Source: Microglena sp. YARC (Eukaryota; Chlorophyta; Chlorophyceae; Chlamydomonadales; Chlamydomonadaceae). From it: a stretch of DNA of 64,000 bases. This document shows, one piece after another, positions 1,142 through 29,887 of this stretch (position 1 is its first letter; each line of letters starts with the position of its first letter). The notes under the pieces were generated by a model, which worked only from the letters and a program-made list of their open reading frames with translations, searched no databases and was not told the origin of the DNA. The stretch is from NCBI GenBank assembly GCA_022414725.1, contig CM039465.1, positions 43,302,560-43,366,559 of the forward strand, given 5' to 3'. A program made the translations under genes and the position numbers.

Positions 1142-1740
1142 ACCCCTGCACAGGCACACTAGCCCAGGAGCAAGCCATGGCACATGCACTAGCAACAGGT
1201 GCAGCCGCGTCTGTCTAGCCTACTGCACGCTCACACGCTCACATTTACACACACTCGACAATCGCAAACACAAACACATACAAGATCACACCCCACCCCA
1301 TCAACACCCCCCTGCACAGGCATCCTAGCCCAGGAGCAAGCCATAGCACATGCGCGATCCACTGGCACCGCCGCCCCTGCCTAGCCTACAGCACACACAC
1401 AGCACACTCATACACTTACTCACACACACACGAATACACACACAAACACACACTCCCGCCTACACACTTTCTCTCAAATACACTCACATCCAATATCACC
1501 CCCCCCCCCCCCCTTCCCAGGCATCCTGGCCCAGGAGCAAGCCATCGCACACGCACTAGCCACCGGCACCGCCGTCCCTATCTAGCCTACTGCACTCTCA
1601 CAAACACACACACACAGCACACACTCACACAGCACACTCTCACACACACGCACTCACACACGCACTCACACACACACATACATACAATATCACACACCAC
1701 CTCATCAACAACCCCCTCCCACCCCCCCCCCCCTCCCCAG
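1142..1740 (+). repeat. Upstream copies of the gene A exon 5' edge
   Basis: Three partial copies of the beginning of the exon at 1741 precede it. Their AG-flanked starts are at 1154, 1320 and 1521. Each has a CAG acceptor-like end, then the segment encoding [17 protein letters not shown], then TAG and CCTACTGCAC or similar, followed by CA-rich or C-rich DNA. The fourth and innermost copy continues as the full exon. The pattern is duplication of intron 3' end plus exon 5' end. Confidence 0.75.
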
Positions 1741-2192
1741 GCATCCTGGCCCAAGAGCAAGCCATCGCATTTGCACTAGCAAACGGCACAGCCGCCCCTA
1801 TCTTCAAGAGCAGCAGCCGCGGCCGAGGTCGCGGCTCCTCAGCAGGCGGCCGGGGGCGCGGGGGCGGCAGGGGGGCTGTGGCTAAGCCCCCCTCCGGGCG
1901 TGGCAGAGGTAGGGGGCGGGGCAGAGGCAGGCCACCAGCCAGGCTGGCAGCCCAGCAGGTGGCCCCCCCCCTCTATGACGGGGGGCTGGGGGGAGAGCTG
2001 GCGTGGCCCTCTCCGTCCCAGGCCCCCCCTGTGGACGAGGATGATGACGTGGACATGGTGCATTCCACCAGGGAGGTGGATGATGAAGAGGGGGAGGAGG
2101 ACGAGGAGGTTGCCATGGAGGACGAGGTGGAGGAGCGCTTGGCCGGGGAAGAGGACATGGAGGAGGAGGTGGTGGATGCTAACATCATAGCG
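1741..2192 (+). CDS. Gene A, internal exon (RGG-rich then acidic protein)
   Basis: I do not recognise this gene. The exon is bounded by CCCAG at 1736-1740 and GTAAGC at 2193. With codons in frame from 1743 it encodes [19 protein letters not shown], then an Arg/Gly-rich stretch (GRGRG repeats, about residues 27 to 70). An acidic stretch (DEDDDVDM, EEGEEDEE) follows, ending ..VVDANIIA with a phase-0 donor. RGG-plus-acidic composition is typical of nucleolar, chromatin or RNA-binding proteins, but no domain can be named. The 5' end of the gene is not identified and may lie left of the window. The next supported exon starts at 3693 in phase 0, which fits this donor. Both exon borders are amplified into the neighbouring introns. 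Confidence 0.6.
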
Positions 2193-2520
2193 GTAAGCAA
2201 TGGGAATGGATGTGTGGGTGGGGGTGGGGGGGCATGACGTGGACATGGTGCATCCTGCCAGGGAGGAGGAGGAGGTGGTGGAGGAGGTTATTCAGGAGGT
2301 GGTGGAGAAGGAGGTGGAGGAGGAGGTCATTCAGGAGGTGGTGGATGCAAACATCATAGAGGTGAGCAATGAGGATGGGTGTGGGTAGGTTTGGGGGGGG
2401 GGGGGGGGGGGGGGGGCATGACGTGAACATGGTGCATCCTACCAGGAAGGTGGAGAAGGAGGTGGTGGAGGAGGTCATTCAGGAGGAGGTGGTGGATGCA
2501 AACATTATAGCGGTGATCAA
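2193..2520 (+). repeat. Downstream copies of the gene A exon 3' edge
   Basis: Two partial copies of the acidic exon end follow the real donor, at about 2227-2362 and 2416-2516. Each repeats the segment encoding DVDMVHP...VVDANII and keeps a donor-like GTGAGC or GTGATC at the homologous place. A poly-G tract of about 25 bases separates them (about 2392-2416). Confidence 0.7.
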
Positions 2521-2811
2521 AAGGGATCGGTGGGAGTGGGGGTGGGGGTGGGGGAATGGGAATATGCTTTGGGTCGGTGGGTTATGTGTGTGTGTGTGGT
2601 GGTGATGGTTGGGGTGTGTGTGTGTGTGGTGGTGATGGTTGGGGTGTGTGTGTGGTGGGGGTGGGGGTGGGGGGTGGAGTGGGGGGGAGTGCTTGGTGTA
2701 GGAGGATGTGTACCCAATCCAAACCAAACCAAACCAACCCTATCCAAACCAACCCAGCTCAACCCTACATACCCCCCCCTCCACACACACACACACACTC
2801 ACAAAACCATA
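2521..2811. other. Intron DNA, GT-rich then AAACC-rich
   Basis: GTGTGTGTGG/GGTGATGGTTGGG repeats are followed by AACCAAACC repeats and a CA run. No coding signal. Confidence 0.5.
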
Positions 2812-3692
2812 TGATGACGATGACACTCGCACACAGGGCAGCCTCCTAGAGAGTGCCATGGGCGGCATCAAGGCTCACCCCGTACGACGTTGACAGTGAG
2901 ATCTAACACAAGACAGCACTATCCAACACTACCCCCCCCCCCCCCCCCCCCCCCCCCTTTCCAACACACACACACACATAGACCATCAGTTGACGATGAC
3001 AATAGCTCCCAGGGCAGCCTCCAAGTGAGTGCCATGGGCGGCAGCGAGGCTTACCCGTACGACGTTGACAGTGAGATAAAACACAACACAACCCTATCCA
3101 ACCCTATCCAACCCAACCCAACCCAACCCACACTCTCACACGCACGCACACACACACACACACACACACACAGGATGACGATGACACTGGCTCCCAGAGC
3201 AGTCTTCTGGTGAGCGCCATGGGTGGCAGCGAAGCCTGCCAGTAGGACGGTGACAGTGAGATCTAACACAACACAACCCTATCCAACACTATCCAACACA
3301 ACACAACACAGCACAACACAACACAGCACCCAAAGGATGACGATGACACTCGCTCACAGAGCAGCCTTCTGGTGAGTGCCATGGGCGGTAGCGAGGCCTA
3401 CCTATACTACGGGTACAGTGAGATCTACCCTACCCAACACAACATTACACAACCACACTCTCACACCCACACACCCCACAGGATGACAATGACACTTGCT
3501 CACAGGGCAGTCTTATTGTGAGTGCCATGGGAGGAAGTGAGGCCTACCCGTGCGACGGTGACAGGCAGATCGAACACAACACATTCCTATCCAACCCTGT
3601 CCAACCCAACACAACACAACACAACACAACACAACCCAACACAACCCAACACAACCCAACACAACCCACACTCTCTCTCACACACACCACAG
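2812..3692 (+). repeat. Upstream copies of the second gene A exon edge
   Basis: Five partial copies start with GATGACGATGACAC or a close variant at about 2812, 2991, 3175, 3336 and 3482, before the full exon at 3693. Each carries a homologue of the first 80 bp or so of the exon (DDDDTxSQGSLLVSAMGGSEA), then GACA followed by GTGAGATC or a variant, then ACAACACAACC-type intron repeats. Several copies contain in-frame stops (TAG at about 3244), so they are not usable as exons in frame. Long C tracts and CA runs separate copies. Confidence 0.75.
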
Positions 3693-4117
3693 GATGACGA
3701 TGACACCCGCTCCCAGGGCAGTCTTCTTGTGAGTGCCATGGGTGGAAGTGAGGCCTACCTGTATGACGGTGACAGTCTCATGGGTGGTGCCGGTGCAGGG
3801 GAATATGATGACCCCTCTACCTCTTACGGGGGGGGGCCTGCCTCATCCTTTGGGGGTGGCCTTGGGGGGGCATGGGCTGCTGGCCTAGGCCCCCCCTAGG
3901 GGAAGGGGGGGGGCTAACCCGGTATCCGAGCTCTTCGGTGTTGAGTAGACCCGTAGGGGCAGGGGCAGGGGCTGAGGCCACGCCACCTGGGGTTGCGGCG
4001 ACCCCAGGTGGTAGTGGTGGTGGGGCTGCACCTAGTAGACCAGCTGGCTCAGGGCTGAAGCTCAAAGTGAAGTTCTCACTGCCCAAATCTTACTCAGCTC
4101 CGAAACCAGGTACTTAG
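3693..4117 (+). CDS. Gene A, Gly/Pro-rich exon, first copy (frameshifted)
   Basis: Acceptor AG at 3691-3692; phase 0 matches the donor at 2192. It encodes DDDDTRSQGSLLVSAMGGSE, then Gly-rich sequence (GGAGAGEYDDPSTSYGGGP), Pro/Gly/Ala-rich sequence, and a basic hydrophobic end (LKLKVKFSLPKSYSAPKPG) before TAG at 4115-4117. A poly-G length difference near 3867-3900 shifts the frame relative to the second copy. It is either a real 1-bp indel or an error in a G run. The end may be a stop (KPGT*) or a splice donor (CCAG/GTACTT); both readings are open. Confidence 0.5.
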
Positions 4118-4590
4118 AACAGGAATGGGAAGGGGGGGGGAGGGGGGGGGGGGGGGGGGGGTAGATCAGATTTTTTGTCTTCTCAATTTCGAAGTTGTTG
4201 ATTCGGCAATTCGAATTATGACAGGTGGGTTACACCAGGGTTGTTCAGGAAGCTGCGTCCTCCGTCGCGGATGCAACGTCTAAGGGCCTGTTGACCAGAA
4301 GGAAGGATCCGTTGCGTCTCAGGCAGCAGATCTGGTTGTCCTCCTGAAGTACCCTGGGCAGCACCATTAGAATTGAATTGAATTGTTTCATGGTTTTTCT
4401 ACCAACTACGGGCTGCTCACCGTCTTTCAATTCCAAGTTCCCCCTTGCGAATGTTGCGATATCCAGCCTGCCAGGGAGCATACCAGCGGGTTAGGCAGTT
4501 GAAAACGTGTCTAGGTTACACTGTTATGCTAGTAGTACCGGCATTCAGTATTTAGTATGCTATAAGTATTAGTATTCAGTATTTTTACTA

Positions 4591-4997
4591 GCTCCCAGGG
4601 CAGTCTTCTTGTGAGTGCCATGGGTGGAAGTGAGGCCTACCTGTATGACGGTGACAGTCTCATGGGTGGTGCCGGTGCAGGGGAATATGATGACCCCTCT
4701 ACCTCTTACGGGGGGGGGCCTGCCTCATCCTTTGGGGTGGCCTTGGGGGGCATGGGCTGCTGGCCTAGGCCCCCCCCTAGGGAAGGGGGGGGGCTAACCC
4801 GGTATCCGAGCTCTTCGGTGTTGAGTAGACCCGTAGGGGCAGGGGCAGGGGCTGAGGCCACGCCACCTGGGGTTGCGGCGACCCCAAGTGGTAGTGGTGG
4901 TGGGGCTGCACCTAGTAGACCAGCTGGCTCAGGGCTGAAGCTCAAAGTGAAGTTCTCACTGCCCAAATCTTACTCAGCTCCGAAACCAGGTACTTAG
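4591..4997 (+). CDS. Gene A exon, second copy, frame intact
   Basis: This is the only copy in which the frame runs unbroken from LLVSAMGGSEAYLYDGDS through the Gly-rich and Pro-rich parts to LKLKVKFSLPKS..KPGT and TAG at 4995-4997. It lacks the GATGACGATGACAC acceptor edge, because the tandem unit starts inside the exon. TTTTTACTAG directly precedes it and could act as an acceptor. Whether it is included in the mRNA is unknown. Confidence 0.45.
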
Positions 4998-5476
4998 AAC
5001 AGGGAATGGGAAGGGGGGGGGAGGGGGGGGGGGGGGGGGGGGGGGGTAGATCAGATTTTTTGTCTTCTCAATTTCGAAGTTGTTGATTCGGCAATTCGAA
5101 TTATGACAGGTGGGTTACACCAGGGTTGTTCAGGAAGCTGCGTCCTCCGTCGCGGATGCAACGTCTAAGGGCCTGTTGACCAGAAGGAAGGATCCGTTGC
5201 GTCTCAGGCAGCAGATCTGGTTGTCCTCCTGAAGTACCCTGGGCAGCACCATTAGAATTGAATTGAATTGTTTCATGGTTTTTCTACCAACTACGGGCTG
5301 CTCACCGTCTTTCAATTCCAAGTTCCCCCTTGCGAATGTTGCGATATCCAGCCTGCCAGGGAGCATACCCAGCGGGTTAGGCAGTTGAAAACGTGTCTAG
5401 GTTACACTGTTATGCTAGTAGTACCGGCATTCAGTATTTAGTATGCTATAAGTATTAGTATTCAGTATTTTTACTA

Positions 5477-5882
5477 GCTCCCAGGGCAGTCTTCTTGTGA
5501 GTGCCATGGGTGGAAGTGAGCCTACCTGTATGACGTGACAGTCACATGGGTGGTGCCGGTGCAGGGGAATATGATGACCCCTCTACCTCTTACGGGGGGG
5601 GCCTGCCTCATCCTTTGGGGGGGGCCTTGGGGGGGCATGGGCTGCTGGCCTAGGCCCCCCCCTAGGGGAAGGGGGGGGCTAACCCGGTATCCGAGCTCTT
5701 CGGTGTTGAGTAGACCCGTAGGGGCAGGGGCAGGGGCTGAGGCCACGCCACCTGGGGTTGCGGCAACCCCAGGTGGTAGTGGTGGTGGGGCTGCACCTAC
5801 TAGACCAGCTGGCTCAGGGCTGAAGCTCAAAGTGAAGTTCTCACTGCCCAAATCTTACTCAGCTCCGAAACCAGGTACTTAG
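5477..5882 (+). pseudogene. Gene A exon, third copy, broken 5' part
   Basis: Relative to copy 2 it has small deletions near 5519-5540 (GAGCCTAC, GACGTGACAG) that shift the frame in the SEAYLYDGDS segment. The downstream Gly/Pro part and the KPGT end with TAG at 5880-5882 remain. Confidence 0.6.
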
Positions 5883-6384
5883 AACAGGGAATGGGAAGGG
5901 GGGGGGGGGGGTAGATCAGATTTTTTGTCTTCTCAATTTTGAAGTTGTTGATTTGGCAATTCGAATTATGACAGGTGGGTTACACCAGGGTTGTTCAGGA
6001 AGCTGCGTCCTCCGTCGCGGATGCAACGTCTAAGGGCCTGTTGACCAGAAGGAAGGATCCGTTGCGTCGCAGGACGCAGGCTATACAATTGGTTGCGTCT
6101 CAGGCAGCAGATCTGGTTGTCCTCCTGAAGTACCCTGGGCAGCACCATTAGAATTGAATTGAATTGTTTCATGGTTTTTCTACCAACTATGGGCTGCTCA
6201 CCGTCTTTCAATTCCAAGTTCCCCCTTGTGAATGTTGCGATATCCAGCCTGCCAGGGAGCATACCCAGCGGGTTAGGCAGTTGAAAACGTGTCTAGGTTA
6301 CACTGTTATGCTAGTAGTACCGGCATTCAGTATTTAGTATGCTATAAGTATTAGTATTCAGTATTTTTACTTCCACTAGCTCGT

Positions 6385-7974: not shown

Positions 7975-7977
<3 letters not shown>

Positions 7978-8021
<44 letters not shown>
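7978..8021. repeat. (CT)n microsatellite
   Basis: About 22 uninterrupted CT dinucleotides. Confidence 0.95.
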
Positions 8022-8022
<1 letters not shown>

Positions 8023-10023: not shown

Positions 10024-13000
10024 GTGTGCCAAGGATGTAGACAGAGCAATGCCGAATATCCCCCATGTTAGCCCCCACATGCATCGGGCCCCGTCTATGA
10101 TAGATCTTTTGCCGTCTTCATTCGCATGCCCCTTGTGATGGCTTTCATGTTCTGCGTCTCACCCCTCCTCGATTGCAGCTTTTACTGTAGCGAGTATCCC
10201 TTACAGTACATAGATGTCTCAGCGCATCCTTCTCCCTTCACCCACAGGCTTTCTTCGAGCGATATTTCGTAGAGCTGGAGCTTAGCCAGAATCAGCATAG
10301 TTCTAGTTCATTCCACTCTAACATGGCGACCTATCGCTTGAAGCTACAAGTCTCAGCTGCAACCTCGTCGCCCCAGCAGCGCTCTCCGGGCTCGTTGAAG
10401 CAGAGCCCCTCGGTGCACAGGTAATATTGTTTTTCTCTGCTTATGCTGCCGTGCTGCACACTTGCTTCGTTCGTTTTTTGTGTCTGCTGTGCGTGTTCTA
10501 GTTTGGTAGGGTCGTGTTTGGGCGAAAAACAGGTATCTGGTATCACGTCGGTAACGGCACGGGTGCGCGTATTGTCAGATATGTGCGCCATAAGCATATG
10601 CACATGATCAGCTGCAGCCAAATTTCGTGGGGAGTCCCCAATGGAATATTAGGCCACTCCCTTTTCATAGGGAGCAGCTCACCTAAAGCATGTGAACCCT
10701 GAGCTGAAGTGGCAGGGGTTAAGGCCCTTGAAATCCTAGCACTAAAGATGTGCACAGCACCAGCTATTTACGTACCGGGTTGTGTTGTATGGCTTTGAGT
10801 GTGGGTATGGAATGGGTTTTTTAAGTGAGTATGTTTTTTTAGAATCACCAACATTCCTGACCTAACAACTTTTTATTTTTTGCTAATTTAGCCTCGATTT
10901 CCGCAGTGGTTGTGTAGAGGGCATTCTGGGATTTTCGGTGGTATGCTGATCATGTCAAAATTCGAAGGCAGCAAAAAGTTAAGCAACTTTGTATCGTGGA
11001 ATTGGCTTAGGTGCAAGAAGCAACCGTACTCACCGTACGCGTACTCAACTTGTAGGGAAACGAGTATGGTACAGAGTCTAGGTGCAAACAGTCCGAATGA
11101 CACAACCGAGCTTATGTCAAAAGTTAAGAATGAACACCTCGATGTAAAGCCAGCCCGTTGAGAGAGGTTAAGTGTACTTGGCAAACCCCTCCAGTCCATC
11201 ATGCTCCATGTGCTCTGGCGTGGCTTCATTCTGACTACGTATTGCAAAATGTATCGAATTTGCGTGACTTTATTCTGACTTGTTCTACAAATTGAATTTG
11301 CGTGGCTTCATTCTGACTTGTTTACAGATTGAATTGGCGTGGCTTTATTCTGACTTGTTTTACAAATTGATTTGGTGTGGCTTCATTCTGACTTGTTTTA
11401 CAAATTGAATTGGAATGGCTTTATTCTGACTCGTTTTACTGATTGAATTGGCGTGGCTTCATTCTGACCAGTTGTAGTTTTATTGATGATGATGGGCACT
11501 CTTCCCTACCTTAAGCTGGCTTGCATGTTTGTCTGACCCCTCCCCCGTCTCTTGTACAGGGCATCCCCGGTGGCTGTCCAGGAACACTGCTTGCGTCCAC
11601 GCAACACGCTGAAGGTAGCTGCATGTGACACGCCCATCACAAAAAGGCAGAAGAAGAACGCTGACTTGGAGAAGTAAGTAGGGAACGGAAATATGATATC
11701 ATGTCATCGGATGATACCATATGGTATCATGTGATGCCGGCAGTGTGACTAGGCTAAAGTTACCATTTATATGTAATATCATATGCTGCAATCTGTATGA
11801 TATCATATGATATCAATCTCACCTTTGGTCAGCATCAACTGATATACCGGTCCTTAGAAGGAAGTGCCTTAACCATTTTTGCAGGGTGTTGGGCTTCCCA
11901 CCCATTGCTGGTTGGTCGGCCCTGGGTCAGCAACCCTAGTTATTTCCCCCTTTTTTGCGTTTTTTGTAGGTTGACTCTACCTAGGTGTTACCAAAATACG
12001 TGGTCCGACGTGCCAAGATTGTCTAAGGTGACCAAAATGAAGAATCACGTGTGTGTTCCAGCACCCCCGAAGTCCCGCCATGCACACACGAGGGCCGGCC
12101 ATTAGGGAGGCCCGGGCAGCCCACTATTTCGAGCATTGCATCAGGGCTTGAGCAAGATAGCTCTTGCAGATGGGAAGGCCTCCTAAACCCCACTCCCCCT
12201 GTTGTTAGGTCTCAGGAGTCTACACAACCCATTGGTGCGCATCGAGGAGACATTCAACCCCACCTCTACTCACTCCCACCCCACCCCTCACCCCCACCCC
12301 ACTCCTCCCCCCACCCCTCACCCCCATCCCTCATGCGTCTACACATCAGTGTATGTGCCACTCTTCCGTATAGATAGATTAATAGTACGACTTATTATGA
12401 GGCGTGAGGTTGCTTGCACTGGGGCCAACGTCTAAACTCTTTAGTATCATTCATTCATGTCTTTGTTTATTCTTCAGTTTGTTTGTCGATTTTTTGGTTT
12501 CACTTTCAAAAACATCCCTGCTCCAGTATTTGTTTTGTTGACGCGTCGCCCTTCCGTCATTGCATGTCGAAGCATGGGTTTGGCGCTGCTTCCCGAACTC
12601 CCCAGGCTCCGCGCTCCGCCTTGGGATGGTTATTTAGCAATCCTGAACTCTGGCTTGAGTAGCCCAAGTAGCTACTCATCTTGTCCTGCAGAAATCTGAA
12701 GTACAAAACTGTCCTGCTCCCCTTGCAGAGCGTAACCTTCGCCGCCACCTTGACAGGATGTTTCTTGGGACAGGGGCTGTCACCGAACACCAGCCCTAAA
12801 CAACAACCCACACCCACCAACCCTCAGCTTCTTTCCAGGTTCCCACCCAGCTCCCACCCCATCCACCCCCCCACCCCTCACCCCCCCACCCCCCCACCTC
12901 CCCTGCAGTGTGTCTCCTTCATCTTGCCAGGATGTATCTTGGGACAGCGGCTTTCACAAACACCAACTCTAAACAACAGCCCTAAACAACAACCCACACC

Positions 13001-13353
13001 CACCAACCCTCAGCTTCTTTCCAGGTGCCCCCCCAGCTCCCCACCCCTCACCCCACCCCCCACCTCCCCCTGCAGTGCGTCTCCTTCACCTTGCCAGGAT
13101 GTATCTTGGGACAGCGGCTTTCACCAAACACCAACACCAAACACCCCCCCCCCCACACACACACACACACCACACCCACACCCACACCCCACCACCCCTC
13201 ACCCCCACTCCCCACCACCTCTGCAGTGCGTCTCCTTCACCTCGCCAGGATGTATCTTGGGACCGGGGCGTCCTCCACAGCATAATCAAGACTGTAGCAG
13301 AGCATCACTTCTGTGCTGTCCAGCAGAATAACCGGAAAAAACTGACTCTGTAG
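9787..13353 (+). CDS. Gene B, four-exon gene for a 216-residue protein of unknown function
   Basis: Exons are 9787-10023, 10248-10420, 11560-11673 and 13227-13353. All introns are GT-AG and the three junction phases (0, 2, 2) close exactly, giving 651 nt, which is 216 codons plus TAG. The order is a Ser-rich N-terminus; a basic helix (LQERLRKKFKQMGKVAV); FFERYFVELELSQ; a Ser/Pro-rich basic segment (SPQQRSPGSLKQSPSVHR); a KRQKKN patch resembling a nuclear localisation signal; and the C-terminus LHSIIKTVAEHHFCAVQQ NNRKKLTL. I recognise no family. The start is the first ATG after an in-frame stop at 9745. A second in-frame ATG exists at 10323. The final exon is preceded by degenerate copies of its own 5' edge. 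A MITE begins at position +6 of intron 3. Confidence 0.65.
10248..10420 (+). CDS. Gene B exon 2
   Basis: Preceded by CCCTTCACCCACAG; begins AFFERYFVELELSQ and ends ..SPSVH plus two bases, followed by GTAATA. Confidence 0.65.
11218..11480 (+). repeat. 38-bp tandem repeat in gene B intron
   Basis: About seven diverged copies of GTGGCTTCATTCTGACTTGT plus TTTACAAATTGAATTGGC. Confidence 0.8.
11560..11673 (+). CDS. Gene B exon 3
   Basis: Preceded by a strong pyrimidine tract and TTGTACAG. Encodes ASPVAVQEHCLRPRNTLKV through KRQKKNADLE, followed by a consensus GTAAGTA donor. Confidence 0.7.
11679..11856 (+). mobile_element. MITE copy 1 (TAGGGAACGG family)
   Basis: 178 bp. Ends TAGGGAACGG... and ...CCGGTCCTTA form imperfect terminal inverted repeats with TA at the borders. 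The interior is rich in ATGATATCAT and CATATG palindromes. Copies 2 and 3 lie at 18150 and 22552. It starts six bases into the intron, immediately after the GTAAG of the gene B exon 3 donor. Confidence 0.75.
12735..13226 (+). repeat. Upstream copies of the gene B terminal exon edge
   Basis: Partial copies of the acceptor plus about 50 bp of exon start near 12729, 12910 and 13075. Each has TGCAG followed by (T)GYGTCTCCTTCA..GCCAGGATG. The copies then run into AAACACCAAC or C-rich spacers. The outermost copy is the most diverged. Confidence 0.75.
13227..13353 (+). CDS. Gene B terminal exon
   Basis: Preceded by CCACCTCTGCAG. Encodes ASPSPRQDVSWDRGVLHS through to ..RKKLTL and TAG. The upstream partial copies diverge after about 50 bp, so only this one gives the full C-terminus. 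Confidence 0.65.
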
Positions 13354-14095: not shown

Positions 14096-14139
14096 TGCTG
14101 TTGCTGCTAACTGCAGCTGAGGTGGCTTGTTTTGTTGAA

Positions 14140-16295: not shown

Positions 16296-16637
16296 TTGCG
16301 TATACATTCTTTCCGTCTTCCCCCCGCTCTGCCTGTCCACGAGAGCGCAATCCTAGTTTCTCACAGACCAGCAACCCTGGCGACTCTAACGCAAACACCC
16401 CTTGCCGAGGTCGGCAATGTTCCGACAGCAGGCTTGGGCAAAGGTGGAGCAGCAGCGCATCTAAAGCGCCCAGATGAACAGGTGCAGCCCAGTCTTGCTG
16501 CCGGGACCGCTGGAGCAGATAACAATCAGCGTTGGCAGCTGTCAGATTTCGAGATAGGGAAGCCTTTGGGCAAGGGCAAGTTTGGCAATGTTTATCTGGC
16601 CAGGGAGAAGAAGAGTCAATACATCGTAGCACTGAAG
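16296..16637 (+). CDS. AUR: Aurora exon 1 (5' end uncertain)
   Basis: Low-complexity N-terminal tail, then [19 protein letters not shown] and VALK, with donor GTAGGT at 16638. An acceptor could be at 16355 (CCTAG) or 16370 (CACAG); the true 5' border is not known. Confidence 0.75.
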
Positions 16638-19600: not shown

Positions 19601-22499
19601 CACCATCTGTGCTACGTATGTAACCTCTGTGCTACGTATATCACCTTCAAGAAATCCGCGCTTACCATCTACCCTGATTGATCCCATGCAGGACAAGGTG
19701 TACCTTATCCTGGAGTACGCAGCCCGTGGGGAGTTGTACAAGGAACTGCAGAAGCTCGAGCGATTCGATGAGAAGAAGACTGCAACGTGAGTGTCTGGTT
19801 GATCAATGTGCCTTGTAAGGAGTTGTGTATTGCCTGTTGTACATGTTGTTGATCAATGCCTCTTGCACTGAGTTATGTACTGCCCGTTTCACATGCAGGA
19901 TATGGAGGGTGTGTTTACTTCCATAATTTAACCTAGATGGAGCTGAACCTTGTCGTGTATGGCTAAGTCAATTTGAACATTTCAAGGTAGACAATTATGT
20001 ACACATGATGTGGGAGCTAGGGCGTTGCCACTATTCAAGTAGTTACCCGTACAGAGGTCAGGGATGTTTTGTTCAAATCTGAAAGTGGGGTTTTCTAGCT
20101 TTATGGTGCTGGGCCTCCTGTAGGTACAGCGTTTATAGCTTTTTATAGCTTTTATGTACAGCGGCAATTTGGGCCAAAACGGGGTGAAAAGTAGTGATCG
20201 CCATATGTAGCGGGAAAAAATCCCGAACATAGGTGTATTTGCCATGGGATTCAACTTTCCTACTTGTTAGCGGAGCCCCCTCTTCATGGGGGCGGGAACC
20301 CCCAGGGTTACCCGGTTGTCCGTTTGAACGTCCGACCATCTGACCGCCCCTCTGTGACAAAGCCTGATACGTCAGCCAACGGTCTCATAACTAACTCACT
20401 TCCGTTGCCACCTATCGCTCAGTTGCGAACTCTCTCCGCCAATTTTTAGCGACGCTGCATATAACTTGTTCACATGATGTTGTCGATATATAATACCATA
20501 CATTGTACAATATATCAAATGACATCGTCCATATATCATTCGATACATTGTACAATATATTGTACGATACATCAAATGATATCGTCGATATATCATATGA
20601 TGTATCTATAAGCTATCATACCTGACAACCCTAGTCTCTAGTCACGCACCAGGCTTTGAATGCGGCGCGTCATGTTCCTTATGGGTACATCTCTCACTTG
20701 TGTATTGCCTGGTGTACATCGTGTTCTTTACAGGTACATGTCCCAGTTTGCGCGTGCTTTGTTGTACTGCCACTCCAAGCACGTTATCCACCGTGACATC
20801 AAGCCTGAGAACCTCCTTGTTGGTATAAATGGGGAGGTCCCCAATATTATCGGGCGATATATCATACGATACATTGCACTATATATCAAACGATACCGTC
20901 GATATAACATACAATACATTGTTCTGTATATCAAATGATACTGTCGATGTAACATACGATACATTGTTAGATTTTTCAAATGATATTGTTGATATATCAT
21001 ACAAAGTGTCTGTACACTATCGTACTTGATAAGCCTAGTTCCTTGTCACGCACCAGGCTTTGAATGCGACGCGTTCTGTTCCTTGCATGTACATCTTACG
21101 TACATCTTACATCTTACGTCGTGTTCCTTGCAGGTACATCTCTCAGTTGGCGCGTGCTTTGATGTACTGCCACTCCAAGCATGTTATCCACCGTGACATC
21201 AAGCCTGAGAACCTCCTTGTTGGTCTAAATGGGGAGGTGAAGATTGCCGACTTTGGCTGGTCTGTGCATGCCCCAAACAGCAGGTACGCAGGGGTGGTGG
21301 TGGTGTGTAGGTGGTTTGTGTGTGGTGTGTGGTGGGTGCATGCGCCAAACAGAAGGTACGCACGAGTGGTGTGTAGGTGTAGGTGTGTGTGTGGTGTGTG
21401 GTGTGTGTGGGTGGTCTGTGCATGCGCCAACCAGCAAGTTGGTGGTTCTCTAGATCTGGGGCTGCACAAATCTATCTATATAAATATATATAGGGTTGGG
21501 CCGGCGTATGAACGTATAATCATACGTATATTCATACGTATGATTTTTCCTCGAAACGTATAATCATACGTATGTACAAACTTATGAGTAGTGTACGTCG
21601 AAAAGTACAGCTCGCTTCCCGGCATTTAACTTTCTCGTTTTTCATTCAATATTTGATTTAGATAGCTCATTGGAAAGCTACTAACCTCCTCTATCACATT
21701 ATGCAATAAAATCAACCTTTCAATTGTACAATTTCGTTTAAATTCGGACCAAAGTTTCATTTAGATAGCCAGATATCAGGCACATATATCAGAGTGTCAC
21801 CTAGCCTTTCATTCCATTGAGCTCCCATGAGAGCGCGTTGGATTGATGGTGCAGGCCTAGTGCAATGTGAACATGGACACTGTTGCAATATAGTTATACA
21901 GTTATATTATTATACATGTATACAGTTATATACACAAAGCTGAGGGCCAACCTCTCCTTTGAAAGGGGGGGAAATATGATCTACATAGCTGCCAATGCTG
22001 ACCTTGCCGACAAGGTCTATGTTGATGAGGAGGTAGCCTTGGATGCCATGGGCCTTGAGGACTGAACCAGTAGCTGACTTAGGGAGCTGTCTAGAAGCTG
22101 CGACATTCTCACATACCTCTGACACCTGTAGCTGACTCAGGGTGCTGCCTAGAAAGATGACTTGATCCTAGTGCAACGTGAACATGGTTACATAGACAGT
22201 ATGTCAATTATTATTGGCAGTGAATGGCTCCCTTAGATAGGCACCGCGCTTCTCGATCGACACACTTCTGGTCGTGATTTATGTTTTGAGATTTGGACAA
22301 TCTAAACTTGTCCGATTATTGTTTTGAGAGTTGATATGTGATGCCAATGAAATTAGCTACGCGGCAATATCTTTAAACCCATGTAAAAGTATTTTCTCGA
22401 GGAGTGTATAATTTCCCTCATACGTTTTCATACGTTTATACGCAAACGTGTATACGTTTATACGGCATATAAAAATCAAAAATATACGTTTGCTTCCCA

Positions 22500-22556
<57 letters not shown>

Positions 22557-24189
22557 AACGGCAGTATAAAATCATATGGTGTCATGTGATAACGGCGGTC
22601 TAGCTAGGCAAAATGTACCTCTCAAATATCATTTCATATGATCCAATTTTTATGATATCATATGATATCATACTCACCTTTGGTCAGTATCATATGATAT
22701 GCCGGACCCTACATATATTACTGTTGCAGGCCTGGCTGTGTCATCCGAATACCCATGCTGCTGTCATTCAAATACCCATGCTGCTGTAATCCAAATACCC
22801 ATGCTACTATGAGACAAACTTGAGGATGGAGGGAAGAGGGAGGAGGGGGGAACCTGGAGGGGGGTTATGGCAAATGCCCCAAGCTACTATGAGACAAACT
22901 CTTGACTGTATTCCCTTACCCCCTTGCTGCTGCCATGCACCATGCTACCCAGGCGAACAAATTGTGTGGAACTTTTGACTATGTCCCCTAACCCCCTTGT
23001 ATGCACCATGATCCTATGAGACAAAATTGAGGCTAGAGGGGGGATGGGGGAACCTGGAGGGGGGTTAGGGCAAATGCCTATGCTACTACGAGATAATTCT
23101 TTGATTGTGTCCCCTAGCCCCCTTGTTGCTGCCATGCACCATTATACTATGAGACAAACTTGTGCGGCCCTCTAGACTATCTCCCCTAACCCCCTTGCAT
23201 GCACCATGATGCTATGAGACGAACTTGAGGCTAGAGGGGGGATGGGGGAACCTGGAGGGGGGATAGGGCAAATACCCATGCTACTAGAGACAAACTCTTG
23301 ACTGTGTCCCCTAACCCCCTTGCATGAACCATACTACTATGAGACAAGTTTGTGTGGCCCTCTTGACTATGTCCCCCCCCTTGTTGCCGTTATGCACCAT
23401 GCTGCACAGGCGACGGACTTTGTGCGGAACTCTTGACTACCTCCCCCCAGAAATGATTGAGGGTCGTGAGCATGACACGTTTGTTGACAACTGGTCCTTG
23501 GGCGTCTTGGCATACGAGTTCTTGATCGGCGGCCCTCCTTTTGAAGCACCAGGGCACCAGGTTGGTTGGTTGGTTGATTGGTAGGATGGCCCCCACTTGA
23601 AGCACCGGGTTGGTTGGTTGGTTGGTGGCCCCCCATTTGAAGCACCAGGTTGGCTAGTTGGATGGTTAGTTGGTGCCCCCCCCTTTTGAAGCACCAGGTT
23701 GGTTGGTTGGTGGCCCCCCTTTTGAAGCACCAGGTTGGCTAGTTGGATGGTTGGGTGGTGGCCCCTTATTTGAAGCACCAGGTTGGTTGGTTGGTGGCCC
23801 CCCTTTTGAAGCACCAGGTTGGCTAGTTGGATGGCTGGGTGGTGGCCCCTTATTTGAAGCACCAGGTTGGTTGGTTGGTTGGTTGGTGGCCCCCCTTTTG
23901 AAGCACCAGGTTGGCTAGTTGGATGGCTGGGTGGTGGCCCCTCATTTGAAGCACCAGGGCACCAGGTTGGTTGCTTCCTTCATCCTTTTTTTACATTTTG
24001 CCATCCTCGCCATTTGATTACGGACATGCTAGAGCGGTAAAAAGTAGGAGGGACACAAATAACCACCCCAAGCCAACTGGCATTAGATATTTCAATCATA
24101 GCCTTAGGCATGCCTGAGTGGTAGGAAGTTATTTTTTGGCAAAGCCCCCATGTTCACTCATTTGTCCGTCTGTTTGTCTGTCTGTCTGT

Positions 24190-24251
<62 letters not shown>

Positions 24252-25860
24252 ACCCTGGGATTAGCTCTGAGATTGTAAACTGTATAGAAATTGTAAGCAT
24301 ATTCATCTGGTAAATGGTGCTACACAATTCAATTTCGGTCCAGCCGCGCACTAAGCATATTCATCTGCCTGGCGCTCAAGTGTCGGGCTACATGTCCACT
24401 GTTATTTTGTGTGAACCACTTTTTGTGTGCTACGCGTCGCCATTCCGTCGCTGCATGGCAACACATGGGTCAGGCTGAACTAGTCAGACATGCCTCTTCG
24501 AACCTCCCAGGCTCTGCCATATGTGGGCTTTGGGGGGCAGCGGGTCGCACTGGGTTCACAACAAGTTGCTCAATTTGCGACGCGTCTCACGAAAAAAAGC
24601 AATGCCACGTGTCGCTTCGGCTCAATTATTTCTAGTACCACTCCCCTGCTTTCGCAATGCCAGTTTTTGGGTGGAGCCCCCCCTTCTGGAAGGCGAGTGC
24701 CCCCAGATTTGTCCGTCCGACCAACGACTGAGACGACACGCCAGCCAACTGTCTCATAACTAAATGGCTTTGGTCAGCTCCACTTCGTTGCACCTGCCGT
24801 TCCGTTGCCATCACTCTGTGCCAATTTTCTGTGACGCTTGCGACGCTGCACAAGAAATTTCCGCATCGCTTGCGGCGCGATTGGGACTGGTCAGGCAGTA
24901 CTACACGTAATGAGAATCTGACTGGTGTGAATATGTCTTATAATTGTTGTGAGATATAGAATGTTCATTTTTGTTTTGTTTTTCATGAAACCTAAAAACT
25001 CTGTATGTGACTGACAGACTTACTAACTAACGGACATTTTTGTCTTGGTAACCCCTTCTTCAAAAATTAAAATCGTAATCTAACTCTTGCGTGATCCCCT
25101 ACTTCTTTGTGTATTACACATATCACCGTATACACACGGACACACATGACCCCCCCCCCCCCACCACCACCACCACCACCAACCACCACCACCACCACCA
25201 CCACACATACACATACACACAATTGGGACAGGCCAGGCAGTGCTACACGTAGTCTAACTCTTGCGTGACCACAAATACACACAGACACACATGATCCCCC
25301 ACCACCACCACCACCCCCACCACCACCACCACCACCACCACCCCACCACACACACACACCACGCACACCACCACCACACCACACATACACACGCAAACAT
25401 GGACACACATGACCTTCCCCTCCCCCCACCACACGCACACACACACACCACCACCACCACACATAAACACGCACATGGACACACATGAACACAATTGGGA
25501 CTGGCCAGGCAGTGCTAAACGTAATCTAACTCTTGCGGGACCACAAATACACACGCACACACATGACCCCCCCCCCCCCCCACCACCACCACCACACACC
25601 ACCACCACCACACACACCACACACACACGCACACAAGGACACACATGACCTTCCCCTCCCCCCACCACACACACACACCACCACCACCACACATGACCTT
25701 CCCTCCCCCACCACACACACACACACACACCACCACACATACACACACACACATGGACACACATGACCCTCCCTCCCCCCACCACACACACACACACCAC
25801 CACCACCACACATACACACGCACACATGGACACATATGACCTTCCCCTCCCCTCCCCCCA

Positions 25861-25903
<43 letters not shown>

Positions 25904-27478
25904 ACCACCACACACATACACACGCACACATGGACACACATGACCTTCCCTCCCCACCACACACAAACACACACACTCACGACCACCACCACACATACAC
26001 ACGCACACATGGACACACATGACCTTCCCCTCCCCCCACCACACACACACACACACACACACCACCACCACCACACAAACACACACACACACATGACACA
26101 CATGACCTTCCCCTCCCCCCACCACACACACACACACAAACCACCACCACCACACGCACATACACACGCACATGGACACACATGAACACAATTGGGACTA
26201 GTCAGACAGTGCTACACGTAGTCTAACTCTTGCATGACCCTCTACTTCTTTGTGTAGGACACCTATCGCCGTATTGTACGGGTAGACCTCAAGTTTCCGT
26301 CCGAGCCTGAAATTAGCTCTGAGGCTAAGGATTTCATTCAGAAGGTTTGTACTGTTGGCAATATAAATTGTACCGTTGGCATTATATCTTGTACTATAGG
26401 CAATACATATTGTACTGTTGACAATATATCTTGTACTGTTGGCAATATAAAATGTACCGTTGGCATTATATCTTGTACTGTAGGCAATACATATTGTACT
26501 GTTGGCAAAATATCTTGTACTGTTGGCATTATATATTGTACCGTTGGCAACATATATTGTGCTGTTGGCAATACATATTGTACTGTTGGCACTATGTCGC
26601 ACTGTTGGTACTATATCTTGTAATGTTGGCAAGCTTATATCTTGTACCGTTGGCATTATATCTTGTACTGTTGGCAATATATACTGTATGGTTGGCAATA
26701 TATACTGTATGGTTGGCAATATATACTGTATGGTTGGCAATATATACTGTATGGTTGGCAATATATACTGTATGGTTGGCAATATATACTGTATGGTTGG
26801 CAATATATACTGTATGGTTGGCAATATATACTGTATGGTTGGCAATATATACTGTATGGTTGGCAATATATACTGTACTGTTGGCAATATATACTGTACT
26901 GTTGGCAATATATACTGTATGGTTGGCAATATATACTGTATGGTTGGCAATATATACTGTATGGTTGGCAATATATACTGTATGGTTGGCAATATATACT
27001 GTATGGTTGGCAATACATACTGTATGGTTGGCAATATATACTGTATGGTTGGCAATACATATTGTACTGTTGGCATTATATCTTCTACCGTTGGCAATAT
27101 ATCTTGTACTGTTGGCGATATATATATTGCATTGTTGGCATTATATATTGTTGTGTTGGCATATCTATTGTACCGTTGGCAACATATATTGTGCTGTTTG
27201 CATTATATCTTGTACCGTTGGCAATACGTATTGTACTGCTGGCATTATATAATGTACCGTTGGCTTCCGTTGGCAATATATCTTGTACGGTTGGCATTGT
27301 ATATTATACCGTTGGCAATATATCTTGTACTGTTGGCATTGTATATTGTACTGTTGGCAATACACATCTCACACCACCACTATTCATTGTGGAGTGATCA
27401 CCCAAGCTGATGATGCATCCTGCTGCTCATCTACTGTTGTAGTTGCTTGTCAAGGATACCAACAGCAGAATGAGCATG

Positions 27479-27512
<34 letters not shown>

Positions 27513-28472
27513 ACCCACACACACTACCCACTACCCATCACCATCCACTACCCTTCCCCCCACTTTCACTACCCACCAATCCCCTCCTCCCCACTACCCA
27601 CCACCATCCACTACCCTTCCCCCACCTCACCTACCCACCAATCCCCCCACCCCCACTACCAACCCACCCACCAACCCCTACTACCCACTTACCAACACAC
27701 CAACACACCTTCTACCAATCCACCACCCACCAATACCATGCACTACACCCCCCACACCACACCACCATCCACCCATACCCACTCATCCACCACCCACTAC
27801 GCACCCTCTCTATGCAGTTGCTTGGGAAGGAGACCAAGAGTCCCATGAACATGAACCCCTCACTACACACCCATCCCACCATCCACCCCTCCCACCCACC
27901 CACTACCCACCGTATTTATGCAGTTGCTTGTGAAGGATACCAAGAGCCGCATGAGCATGAACCCCCCACTCCACTCCACCCCACCACCACAACCCAACCC
28001 TCCCACCCAACAACCAACCCATCACCATCTCTATGTAGTTGCTTGTGAAGGATACCAAGAGCCACATGAGCATGACCCCCCCCCCCCCCCCACCACCACC
28101 ACCACCACACACACACAACCACCACGATCCAACCCTCCCCTCCCACCCAACGACCAACCCACCACCCACCCACCATCCTCTATATGTAGTTGCTTGGGAA
28201 GGATACCAAGAGTCCCATGAACATGAACCCCTCACTACAACACCCATCCCACCATCCACCCCTCCCCACCCACCCACTACCCACCGTATTTATGCAGTTG
28301 CTTGTGAAGGATACCAAGAGCCGCATGAGCATGAACCCTCCACTCCCCCCCCCCCCCCCCCCCCCCACACACACACACAACCCAACCCAACCTCCACCCA
28401 ACAGCCAACCCATCACCATCTCTATGTAGTTGCTTGTGAAGGATATGAAGAGCCACATGAGCATGACCCCCC

Positions 28473-28503
<31 letters not shown>

Positions 28504-29887
28504 ACACACACATACACAAACAACCACCACGATCCACCCCTCCCTCCCACCCAACGACCAACCCACCACCTACCCACCACCCTCTATATGTAGTTGCTTG
28601 TCAAGGATACAAGAGCCACGTGAGCATGAGCCCTTCCCTCCCCCCACCCCACCCCCCAACACACACACACACCATCCACCCTCCCCTTTTACCCAACAAC
28701 CAACCCACCACCCACCCACTACCCACCCTCTCAGTGCAGTTGCTAGTGAAGGATACCAGGAGCCGAATGAGCATGACCCCCCCCACCCCACACCCCCACA
28801 CACACACGCACACCACCACCACCATCCACCCTCTCTATGCAGCTGCTTGTGAAGGATACCAAGAGCCAAATGAGCAAGAACCCCAACTACCCCCCCTCCC
28901 CCCCGCCACCTTCCCCACCCCCCCTCCCCTCCCCTCCCACCCACCACCCACTACGCACTACTGTCTATGAAGTTGATTGAGAAGGATACCAAGAGCAGAA
29001 TGAGCATGAACCCCCCAATACCCCACCCCCTTACCACCACCATCCACCCAACACCCAGCCCAACACCCACCCACTTACCACCCTCTATATGTAGTTGCTT
29101 GTGAAGGATACCAAGAGCCGGATGAGCATGAACCACCCACTACCCCCTTCCCCCCCCACACACACCACCACCATCCACCCCTCCCCTCCCACCCAACAAC
29201 CAACCCACCACCCTCTCTATGAAGTTGCTTGTCAAGGATACCAAGAGCCGCGTGAGCATGAACCCCCCCACCCCACCCCACCATACCCCAACCCACCCAC
29301 TACCCACTTAATACCATGCACTACCCCCTTACCCCACCCACCACCATCCACCCCTCCCCTCCCCTCCCACCCAACATCCAACCATCCACCCATCACCCAC
29401 CCTCTCTAGTTGCTACTATCCACCCTCCCACTACTATCCTCCCTCCACTACTATCCTCCCTCTCTAGTTGCTACTATCCACCCACCCACCCTCTCTAGTT
29501 GCTATACTAAGAGCCGGATGAGTATGAAATTCCCTCCTACCCCCCACCCACCCACCCACACCACCATCCACCCCTCCCCTCCCACCCAACAACCAACCCA
29601 CCACCCTCTCTATGTAGTTGCTTGTCAAGGATACGAAGAGCCGCGTGAGCATGACCCCCCCCCCACCCCACCCCACCCACCCCCACTACCCCACCCAATA
29701 CCATGCACTACTCCCCCACCCCACCATCCACCCCTCCCTCCCCTCCCCTCCCACCCAACAACCAACCCTCCACCCACCCACCATCCTCTCTATGTAGTTG
29801 CTTGTCAAGGATACCAAGAGCCGGATGACCATGAAGGAAGTGGCAGAGCATCCATGGATCAAGGCCTACGCTGATCCCAACGTCTAA
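16296..29887 (+). CDS. AUR: Aurora-family serine/threonine kinase, seven exons
   Basis: Exons: 16296(?)-16637, 17339-17461, 19692-19786, 21134-21283, 23410-23560, 26258-26344, 29798-29887. All junctions are GT-AG and all phases close, giving about 345 residues, which is normal for the family. Motifs in order: glycine loop GKGKFGNVY; catalytic lysine in VALK; helix-C glutamate in RREIEIQ; hinge [10 protein letters not shown]; catalytic loop [19 protein letters not shown]; activation loop RRRTLCGT with the phosphorylatable Thr; [13 protein letters not shown]-lobe [24 protein letters not shown] with [14 protein letters not shown] is diagnostic of Aurora. Aurora kinases control centrosome, spindle and cytokinesis steps. 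The start codon is unresolved: the first exon is open from 16221 with no in-frame ATG, so an upstream exon is likely. Introns are swollen by copies of exon edges and mobile elements. Confidence 0.9.
17339..17461 (+). CDS. AUR: Aurora exon 2
   Basis: 41 codons in phase 0, [20 protein letters not shown] to LYGYFYDA. Strong TTTTTTTCAG acceptor and GTAATT donor. Confidence 0.9.
17435..17716 (+). repeat. 47-bp copies of Aurora exon 2 end plus donor
   Basis: After the real exon end (AGGCTGTATGGTTACTTCTA..GCGGTAATTTG), five more copies start at 17488, 17535, 17582, 17629 and 17676, mostly 47 bp apart. Each has the last 27 bp or so of the exon, a GTAATT-type donor and a TTGAATTTGAATTTG tail. Later copies drift progressively. 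Confidence 0.9.
18150..18327 (+). mobile_element. MITE copy 2 (TAGGGAACGG family)
   Basis: 178 bp, same length as copy 1. TIRs TAGGGAACTGC.. and ..GCCGATCCCTA. Lies in Aurora intron 2. Confidence 0.8.
18405..18620 (+). repeat. Dispersed repeat family of about 200 bp, copy 1
   Basis: Starts with AAGCCCCC, then GGG..GAGAGCCCC and CCCGGTTGTC..TTGTCC, ending CGTCGCTTGCGACGCG. Related copies at about 20262-20455 and 24655-24860 share the order AGCCCCC, ACCCGGTTGTCCGTTTG/TTTGTCCGTCCGACC, TCTCATAACTAA, GCGACGCTGCA. All three are in the same orientation within Aurora introns. Confidence 0.6.
18690..18895 (+). repeat. 64-bp tandem repeat, three copies
   Basis: Unit contains CCCAAAGGCAAACCCAAAAG followed by ACTCTGGTTCC and AGCACCCC. 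Confidence 0.8.
18900..19690 (+). repeat. Tandem repeat of about 250 bp abutting Aurora exon 3
   Basis: Three copies plus a partial fourth start with CTCTGTGCTACGTATA at about 18914, 19178, 19430 and 19633. Each contains GCTTACCATCAAGTG, GGCAAGAGGTGCTCG, CTCATGCTTGCGGCAAC and AACGCTATACAAGATTTGAT. The partial copy ends just before the acceptor of exon 3. Confidence 0.75.
19692..19786 (+). CDS. AUR: Aurora exon 3
   Basis: CCATGCAG acceptor; [20 protein letters not shown] then ..EKKTA plus two bases; GTGAGT donor. Confidence 0.9.
20262..20455 (+). repeat. Dispersed repeat family of about 200 bp, copy 2
   Basis: Second copy of the family described at 18405, with GGTTACCCGGTTGTCCGTTT and the TTTTAGCGACGCTGCA end. 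Confidence 0.6.
20460..21240 (+). repeat. Tandem duplication of about 400 bp around Aurora exon 4
   Basis: The segments 20460-20838 and 20850-21240 share AT-rich units (GATACATTGTACAATATATC..AATGATATCGTCGATATATC), then CACGCACCAGGCTTTGAATG, the acceptor and the exon. Only the second copy has the complete exon. Confidence 0.75.
20734..20838 (+). pseudogene. Truncated duplicate of Aurora exon 4
   Basis: Preceded by CTTTACAG, it encodes [20 protein letters not shown] and the rest of the [17 protein letters not shown] segment, with only conservative changes from the real exon at 21134. Homology stops at GGGGAGGT, so KIADFGW and the donor are missing. Splicing it in would remove or disrupt the DFG motif. 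It belongs to a duplicated segment of about 400 bp. Confidence 0.85.
21134..21283 (+). CDS. AUR: Aurora exon 4 (catalytic loop and DFG)
   Basis: [49 protein letters not shown]. Donor GTACGC at 21284, and the AG of the last codon pairs with the G of exon 5. Confidence 0.92.
21284..21450 (+). repeat. Copies of Aurora exon 4 3' edge
   Basis: Two degenerate copies of GTGCATGCCCCAAACAGCAG plus GTACGC follow the real donor. One is at about 21337-21362 (with AGAAGGTACGCA), the other at 21419-21445 (donor decayed to CAAGTTGG), in a GTGTGG-rich background. Confidence 0.75.
21491..22505 (+). mobile_element. Non-autonomous TIR element of about 1 kb, hAT-like ends
   Basis: TAGGGTTGGG at 21491 is matched by CCCAACCCTA ending 22505. 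Both flanks are AT-rich 8-mers (AATATATA and TATATATA), compatible with an 8-bp target duplication. Subterminal zones are packed with CATACGTATG/CGTATAATCATACGTA words. No transposase is visible. Assignment to hAT is inferred from the end sequence and flank length. Confidence 0.5.
22505..22553. repeat. (TA)n microsatellite
   Basis: About 24 TA dinucleotides between the hAT-like element and MITE copy 3. Confidence 0.9.
22552..22711 (+). mobile_element. MITE copy 3 (TAGGGAACGG family)
   Basis: 160 bp with TIRs TAGGGAACGGCA and GCCGGACCCTA. Internal CATATGATATCATA palindromes are as in copies 1 and 2. Confidence 0.8.
22720..23409 (+). repeat. Upstream copies of Aurora exon 5 5' edge
   Basis: Segments homologous to the intron end and first 40 bp of exon 5 (GCGACGGACTTTGTGCGGAA, CTCTTGACTACCTCCCC) recur at about 22953-22990 (acceptor CCCAG kept), 23150-23190 and 23340-23385. 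Between them are repeats of TGAGACAAACTTGAGG, GGGGGATGGGGGAACCTGG and CCCCTAACCCCCTTG. Confidence 0.75.
23410..23560 (+). CDS. AUR: Aurora exon 5 (activation loop to C-lobe)
   Basis: [20 protein letters not shown], then [20 protein letters not shown] and [10 protein letters not shown]. Phase-0 donor GTTGGT. Intact activation-loop Thr and Aurora-type PPE. Confidence 0.92.
23561..23965 (+). repeat. Copies of Aurora exon 5 3' edge plus donor
   Basis: Nine further copies of GGCCCCCCTTTTGAAGCACC + AGGTTGGTTGG follow the real end of exon 5 at uneven spacing of about 40 to 50 bp. Most keep AG/GTTGG at the donor position. Confidence 0.9.
23966..25069. other. Intron DNA with (TCTG)n and dispersed repeats
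   Basis: (TCTG)n lies at 24178-24246. A segment at about 24430-24530 (GCGTCGCCATTCCGTC..ACATGGGT) is related to 12540-12610. Copy 3 of the dispersed family of about 200 bp is at 24655-24860. Confidence 0.55.
25070..26257 (+). repeat. Copies of Aurora exon 6 5' edge within CA-rich DNA
   Basis: The stretch CGTAGTCTAACTCTTGC..GACC that precedes the real exon is repeated at about 25074, 25250, 25520 and 26217. The first copy extends through TACTTCTTTGTGTATTACAC ATATCACCGTAT, a decayed version of the acceptor and first exon codons. ATTGGGAC..GGCCAGGCAGTGCTA accompanies each copy. The rest is ACACAC, CCACCA and C-tract DNA with no coding signal. Confidence 0.7.
26258..26344 (+). CDS. AUR: Aurora exon 6
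   Basis: 29 codons in phase 0, [20 protein letters not shown] to KDFIQK; acceptor TTGTGTAG, donor GTTTGT. Confidence 0.92.
26345..27362 (+). repeat. 21-bp minisatellite of nearly 50 copies starting at the exon 6 donor
   Basis: Unit TACTGTATGGTTGGCAATAT plus A, with diverged GTACTGTTGGCATTATATCT units at both ends and homogeneous units in the middle (about 26690-27060). It starts flush with the GTTTGTACTGTTGGC donor. Since 21 is divisible by three and the unit has few stops, long repetitive frames (heptapeptide period) appear on both strands; I reject them as genes. Confidence 0.92.
27443..29797 (+). repeat. About 15 upstream copies of the Aurora last-exon edge
   Basis: Copies of TTGCTTGTCAAGGATACCAA + GAGCCGxATGAGCATGA start at 27443, 27828, 27924, 28039, 28190, 28308, 28430, 28594, 28740, 28843, 28973, 29095, 29225, about 29409-29499 (short ones) and 29618. 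Nearly all are preceded by TATGTAG or TATGCAG. All carry AGC where the real exon has ACC (S for T in RMTM). Spacers are C tracts and CCACCCACC DNA. Confidence 0.92.
29798..29887 (+). CDS. AUR: Aurora last exon
   Basis: [20 protein letters not shown] then IKAYADPNV and TAA. It is the final and only full-length member of the upstream series. Confidence 0.93.
   Translation: MLVKDTKSRMTMKEVAEHPWIKAYADPNV

Follow-up and report, generated by a model that had tools for sequence, protein, structure and literature searches.

The question raised by a 64,000-nucleotide stretch of the green alga Microglena sp. YARC (contig CM039465.1, positions 43,302,560 to 43,366,559; hereafter the window) is why the introns of its Aurora kinase gene, and of two further genes called gene A and gene B, hold serial degenerate copies of the neighbouring exon borders, splice sites included. 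The window sits within a 57.6-Mb contig of a 568-Mb genome. A preliminary description of its sequence had attributed the copies to a recurrent process acting at exon-intron borders. The observation is real and more widespread than that description had it; the explanation favoured here, to which we assign a probability of about 75%, is general short tandem duplication combined with selection.

Within the window, 16 borders were queried, each with a 65-bp stretch made of 25 bp of intron and 40 bp of exon. Twelve belong to the Aurora gene, and the four from genes A and B were taken from the preliminary description and are thus not blind. At least one border-spanning copy is present at 11 of the 16, with 34 spanning copies in total and no exon-side copy at any of them; the borders without spanning copies are the Aurora exon 1 donor, exon 2 acceptor, exon 3 acceptor, exon 3 donor and exon 6 donor. 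Tandem Repeats Finder calls repeats over several of these arrays. The coordinates of the preliminary description proved correct wherever checked, except for Aurora exon 6: one acceptor copy exists there, but it is weak and has lost its AG, and the donor side is a 21-bp array of intron sequence only. The exons and copies, in window coordinates, are as follows.

1126-1193, 1292-1348 and 1499-1560, plus strand: three decayed copies of the gene A acceptor at 1741, each made of intron end, AG and exon start.
1741-2192, plus strand: presumed exon of gene A, an open frame amplified at both ends (acceptor 1741, donor after 2192).
2333-2520, plus strand: two copies of the gene A donor after 2192, each made of exon end, GT and intron start.
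2789-2847, 3148-3213, 3322-3375 and 3455-3521, plus strand: gene A acceptor at 3693, four copies detected.
12883-13112, plus strand: two copies of the gene B acceptor at 13227, with an additional copy seen by eye near 12729.
16500-16637, plus strand: Aurora exon 1, start at 16500 uncertain, donor without border copies.
17339-17461, plus strand: Aurora kinase exon 2, acceptor without border copies.
17488-17676, plus strand: four spanning copies of the Aurora exon 2 donor, period 47.
19692-19786, plus strand: Aurora exon 3, border copies found at neither acceptor nor donor.
20715-20840, plus strand: Aurora exon 4 acceptor copied once, together with about 108 bp of exon, right end placed by eye.
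21134-21283, plus strand: Aurora exon 4.
21330-21380, plus strand: one copy of the Aurora exon 4 donor.
22935-22988, plus strand: one copy of the Aurora exon 5 acceptor.
23410-23560, plus strand: Aurora exon 5.
23561-23976, plus strand: Aurora exon 5 donor array, three copies above threshold, two of them spanning.
25092-25131, plus strand: one weak, decayed copy of the Aurora exon 6 acceptor, AG lost as judged by eye.
26258-26344, plus strand: Aurora exon 6, donor without spanning copies.
27438-29654, plus strand: Aurora exon 7 acceptor array, 14 copies (13 spanning the border) within 2.2 kb, with C-rich linkers between.
29798-29886, plus strand: Aurora exon 7, the real, innermost copy.

Loci outside the window were drawn from Pfam profile searches for chaperonin (PF00118, 62 matches) and kinesin (PF00225, 126 matches). 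The 30 best matches per family gave 60 exon loci, a sample biased toward long, well-conserved exons; two very long single hits (L007 and L012) were excluded, leaving 58 loci for analysis, and L037 to L040 lie outside the analysed set. A splice-motif and position filter kept 80 of the 116 possible borders in these loci and discarded 36. Two of the kinesin exon loci, L053 and L067 (C1:190745351 and C1:190771084), are near-identical, lie about 26 kb apart and hold three acceptor-border copies each, so this array is probably older than the duplication of the locus. Both members entered the flank-profile, border, decay, whole-exon, linker and composition counts, and L067 was dropped from the pseudo-border and decoy-score tests.

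Spanning copies occur at 39 of the 80 mapped borders (acceptors 18/36, donors 21/44), and the loci that hold them are spread over contigs C1 to C5. All 112 lie on the intron side, 48 of 48 acceptor copies upstream and 64 of 64 donor copies downstream, as do 140 of 140 copies in an enlarged set covering 46 borders. Among 40-mers starting 0-20 bp inside the exon-match ends of the 58 exons, 40-43% are copied within 480 bp, compared with 0-1% for a reversed target, so the border copies are not chance matches. A trace is also visible at the protein level, as second profile matches on the intron side that share an exon-edge coordinate (some neighbouring matches being ambiguous); examples are profile positions 264-326, 263-309 and 264-318 at C1:145291615-145292182, and 286-374 plus 322-374 at C5:39357802-39358420. 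Serial copying of exon borders into introns, across the splice site and always in the intron direction, is therefore upheld both in the window and in the two gene families.

Whether borders are duplicated more often than other positions was assessed with pseudo-borders, which are random intron points 350-900 bp from exons that were filtered for complexity (real borders were unfiltered), that score copies on either side and that may occasionally fall into another exon. Under one spanning test, real borders scored 36/79 (0.456) and pseudo-borders 392/1076 (0.364), a difference of 0.09 with a confidence interval of -0.02 to 0.19; pseudo-borders at 350-500 bp gave 130/310 and those at 700-900 bp 140/404. 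The same test in three blind 10-kb stretches returned 233/457 (0.51). Tandem repeats cover 42, 72 and 45% of these stretches, the 72% belonging to L005 (C1:10000001-10010000). Within the Aurora gene, 40-mers have copies at 348 of 595 intron positions, compared with 5 of 12 edges of exons and 1 of 7 of their interiors; the local-copy fraction is 0.54 for this gene, 0.16 at 8-16 kb of the window and 0.20 at 43-64 kb.

A flank profile over the 58 exons, with copies sought within 480 bp and distances counted from profile-match ends and not from mapped splice sites, gave 40-mer copy fractions of 0.34-0.43 at 600-1000 bp and 0.55-0.58 at 100-200 bp into the flank. Into the exon, the fraction falls from 0.40-0.43 (0-20 bp) to 0.25 (40-80 bp) and 0.09-0.11 (80-120 bp), and is 0.13-0.16 over 120-200 bp. 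No difference is seen between exon edge and deep flank (p=0.53), and the near flank exceeds the edge (p=0.016). Duplication is thus about as common at the sampled borders as in the other sampled parts of the genome. The preliminary description had itself proposed comparing exon edges with random intron positions, and on that comparison edges do not clearly stand out, either in the Aurora gene (5/12 vs 348/595) or at the sampled borders (36/79 vs 392/1076). Of its recurrent process at exon borders, the recurrence at many borders is supported, but an action at borders in particular is not, given these rates and the 233/457 of the blind stretches.

The state of the copies was examined against the real exons. 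Mismatches fall at 231 of 2828 first, 200 of 2822 second and 479 of 2815 third codon positions (8.2, 7.1 and 17.0%; 140 copies, 46 borders), a third-position to other-position ratio of 2.23 (confidence interval 1.85-2.70), where a neutral copy, set against an exon limited to synonymous change, would give about 2. Gaps in the exon parts are not multiples of three in 65 of 68 cases. Among 107 copies from 34 exons, 50 hold an acceptor, 55 a donor, two neither and none both. Whole-exon duplication was rejected on this last count, and functional alternative exons on the codon-position ratio together with the frame-shifting gaps. Judged from their sequence, the copies look like neutral relics and are best read as such, not as exons. 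The further claim that distant copies are more decayed survives only as a tendency, seen in 17 of 23 arrays with at least three copies (mean rho -0.28).

Most arrays are built as tandem repeats. Of 94 pairs of successive inter-copy linkers, 80 show homology at z>3, and unit lengths have 5, 25, 50, 75 and 95% quantiles of 62, 124, 163, 196 and 376 bp (n=160). The linkers are often simple sequence, such as ACC repeats in L065 and CA repeats in L058, and the exon part of a copy measures about 20 to 90 bp (5-95% range, the search being limited to 90 bp). Dispersed rather than tandem copies had been hinted at by 128 of 161 young self-matches being shorter than their lag; this was dismissed after inspection of three arrays and linker alignment, which revealed mostly tandem units with fast-changing, low-complexity linkers. 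Introner-like dispersal was sought with 259 bp of one gene A array, which match the genome three times, all inside the array, in a search that skips simple repeats and scores best candidates only. Flush two-copy duplications number 8 of 161, too few for reading junction microhomology.

In the mechanism proposed here, short head-to-tail duplications have built up in introns, at exon borders and elsewhere in the sampled sequence, with units mostly of 60-400 bp and often with simple-sequence linkers. Duplications within an exon or of an entire exon would damage the protein and be lost, and those starting in an intron and ending in an exon would be harmless while splicing keeps the innermost border, because only that border adjoins the whole exon. 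Such harmless duplications would persist and multiply into arrays, losing similarity under neutrality. They may plausibly arise by slippage, by template switching or by repair that uses simple repeats as anchors. When a tandem duplication runs from intron into exon, the truncated copy lies on the intron side, holds the border and leaves the real exon innermost; with tandem geometry and selection explaining direction and spanning, and with borders close to random intron in rate, a border-aimed process is unneeded. Direct support comes from the tandem layout of most arrays, their presence in two gene families on several chromosomes, the similar rates at borders and in introns, and decay without coding constraint. 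A geometric model using intron lags, real exon lengths and uniform duplication placement, with intra-exon and whole-exon events excluded and nothing fitted, was set against the observed edge coverage of 0.42, 0.41, 0.32, 0.18, 0.10 and 0.09 at 0, 20, 40, 60, 80 and 100 bp into the exon. Under near-intron scaling, it gives 0.38, 0.32, 0.26, 0.21, 0.16 and 0.12 over the same 20-bp steps.

Several results weigh against this explanation. Scaled to the deep-intron level, the model yields 0.28, 0.23, 0.19, 0.15, 0.12 and 0.09, too low at the edge, although one-sided decay, with the real exon constrained, should raise edge values; from 120 bp into the exon, the observed 0.11, 0.11 and 0.16 exceed the modelled 0.09, 0.07 and 0.05, an unexplained departure. 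The blind baseline consists of three stretches only and is uneven (85/175, 91/126 and 57/156, or 0.49, 0.72 and 0.37). Local copies are denser in intron 60-300 bp from exons than at 700-1000 bp (0.53 vs 0.39, p=0.0016 overall, 0.0015 at acceptors and 0.14 at donors), and this near-intron excess lies at borders with spanning arrays, at 0.79 compared with 0.29 for borders without. A mild border-proximal excess thus persists, in agreement with the rise of tandem repeats toward intron ends reported for Chlamydomonas and Volvox in the available text of PMC3887541. Divergence in the intron parts of copies is 11.1% (367/3292), under the roughly 15% of the simplest neutral model, a shortfall that may come from local-alignment trimming. 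The absence of whole-exon copies among 107 is weak evidence, about 2 to 7 being expected. The largest array, at Aurora exon 7, has C-rich linkers, and z>3 is reached by only 4 or 5 of their 13 pairs.

As the preliminary description had anticipated, the copies amount to decoy splice sites in series: AG or GT is retained in 112 of 132 (acceptor AG 55/61, donor GT 57/71), and 63 of the 132 equal or outscore the real site that they copy (acceptor 27/61, donor 36/71), the median decoy score being reached by only 2-3% of background AG or GT sites. Column identity is 0.96/0.92 at acceptor positions -2/-1 and 0.88/0.88 at donor positions +1/+2, similar to neighbouring bases; by this measure, the splice dinucleotides in the copies show neither clear loss nor special retention. 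Use of a decoy is predicted to cause a frameshift or stop in 100 of 105 cases (acceptor 46/50, donor 54/55). Because nearly half of the decoys match the motif at least as well as the real site does, local motif strength cannot explain site choice, and selection of the innermost site among strong decoys is the interesting question.

Exon definition has been studied mostly in animals. In the present loci, a decoy acceptor lacks a donor at exon distance and a decoy donor lacks an acceptor, while the innermost pair encloses a normal-sized exon (real exons measure 87-703 bp, median 274, in 34 exons). On these grounds we infer that the innermost site is the one used, perhaps chosen by exon definition, which would become directly testable in a green alga through ordinary RNA sequencing. 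Composition also differs between the two sides of the intron: the last 50 bp before acceptors have C 0.46 and G 0.09 (36 acceptors), and the first 50 bp after donors have G 0.32 and T 0.31 (44 donors; both sets from L008-L070). The C/A-rich intron ends could base-pair with the G/T-rich starts in RNA, drawing the splice sites toward each other. Beyond splicing, the copies amount to a kind of exon-edge record, setting a neutral copy beside its constrained original, and border arrays may mislead automatic gene finding in such genomes.

Among the competing explanations, a border-directed process appears unlikely. Slippage or repair would in that case favour exon edges, either through a link with transcription or splicing or because the C-rich tract at acceptors and the G/T-rich sequence at donors seed it. 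Such a process would fit the strand-asymmetric composition beside borders, the border-proximal intron excess (0.53 vs 0.39), the higher value at borders than at pseudo-borders (0.456 vs 0.364) and edge values 1.5 times those of the deep-intron-scaled model (0.42 vs 0.28). However, the confidence interval of the border excess spans zero (-0.02 to 0.19), the blind stretches are on average at least as repetitive (0.51), and direction and spanning need no special mechanism; moreover, purifying selection on one member of an edge pair would keep the pair detectable for longer than an intron-intron pair, so some excess would be expected anyway. The related proposition that borders are hot spots of tandem duplication, with strong decoys tolerated only through whole-exon recognition by the spliceosome, is likewise doubtful; if it were true, the genome would be a natural library of splice-site choice experiments. 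The retention of AG or GT in 112 of 132 decoys, and the scores of 27/61 decoy acceptors and 36/71 decoy donors that equal or surpass those of the real site, could also mean that selection maintains the copies as alternative exon ends with a function or as regulatory decoys. That is quite improbable, as the codon-position pattern and frame-shifting gaps fit neutral copies, splice dinucleotides are no better kept than adjacent bases, and use would shift the frame or add a stop at 46 of 50 acceptors and 54 of 55 donors.

Two further explanations concern the origin of the arrays. Intron gain by tandem duplication of exonic sequence, which would make the arrays remnants of intron origin, agrees with the presence of exon-derived sequence within introns, but it is very improbable considering that the units combine exon edge with intron sequence and are stacked beside an existing splice site, and that Aurora intron 2 is copied at its donor end and not at its acceptor end. 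Simple-repeat arrays are difficult to assemble, and collapsed or mis-joined tandem repeats might mimic serial copies; such an artefact is scarcely credible for copies that diverge from the real exon by about 7-17% according to codon position, are truncated at varied depths and come from loci on C1 to C5. General tandem duplication with selection accordingly remains the preferred explanation.

The gene models and surroundings complete the picture. The seven Aurora kinase exons located in the window, once joined, align without gaps at 6 of 6 junctions to five algal Aurora proteins, two of which (P0121 and P0134) are named as transcripts. Among the 120 best of 6391 matches, the best is a transcript with 86% identity, and the closest named Aurora proteins by identity are those of Haematococcus lacustris (82%) and Chlamydomonas eustigma (81%). 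Also among these 120, a record listed as Tetraodon nigroviridis (P0122) ranks second by E-value, with 70% identity over 90%, above the named algae, and is possibly a mislabelled or mixed entry. A chaperonin exon from the same genome has full-length identity to a EukProt gene model and 66% identity to a Haematococcus lacustris protein. On these protein similarities the source would most likely be a chlamydomonadalean green alga. The open reading frame of gene A gives a weak family match, below cutoff. Its 3' end and the downstream DNA form a tandem triplicate at 3710-6363, with units of 882-886 bp starting at 3710, 4592 and 5478 (the end of the third assumed from the second) and pairwise identities of 98.6%, 91.6% and 92.1%. 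Retroelement pieces lie at 46153-51673 and 60668-62545, with reverse transcriptase and RNase H matches at 46153-47553, and these regions hold more similar-looking long open reading frames on either strand, as judged by eye. Positions 54000-58360 consist of long C-rich low-complexity tracts with a recurrent motif and several frames open on both strands. Rfam at gathering thresholds gave no match over the whole window.

Known systems share parts of this architecture. In tandem exon duplication, including mutually exclusive exons, exonic sequence with its splice site is duplicated in tandem; here, by contrast, 0 of 107 copies hold a whole exon, and the copies resemble neutral relics. In the potato RdRp gene, as far as the available text of PMC4974935 goes, tandem genomic duplication over exon sequence with splice signals led to gain of a new intron, whereas here existing borders acquire truncated copies. 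Green-alga introns are rich in tandem repeats that become denser toward intron-exon junctions, with abundant intronic GT/AC motifs, according to the accessible part of PMC3887541 (G3, 2013); no repeat unit is said in that part to include exon or splice site, while the present units span the border. The arrays resemble minisatellites or variable number tandem repeats in being head-to-tail, of one orientation and degenerate, with units of tens to hundreds of bp, but differ in covering about half of the sampled splice borders (39/80) and so creating decoy splice sites. They are only minisatellite-like, because most units (62-376 bp, 5-95%) exceed the 10-60 or 10-100 bp quoted for a minisatellite unit in the same part of PMC3887541. 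Exon-border arrays were not described in the titles or abstract openings of the open-licence papers turned up by a literature search. Tandem arrays themselves are already known; judged against the portions of the literature cited above, what is new here is that tandem repeat arrays overlap splice borders on a large scale.

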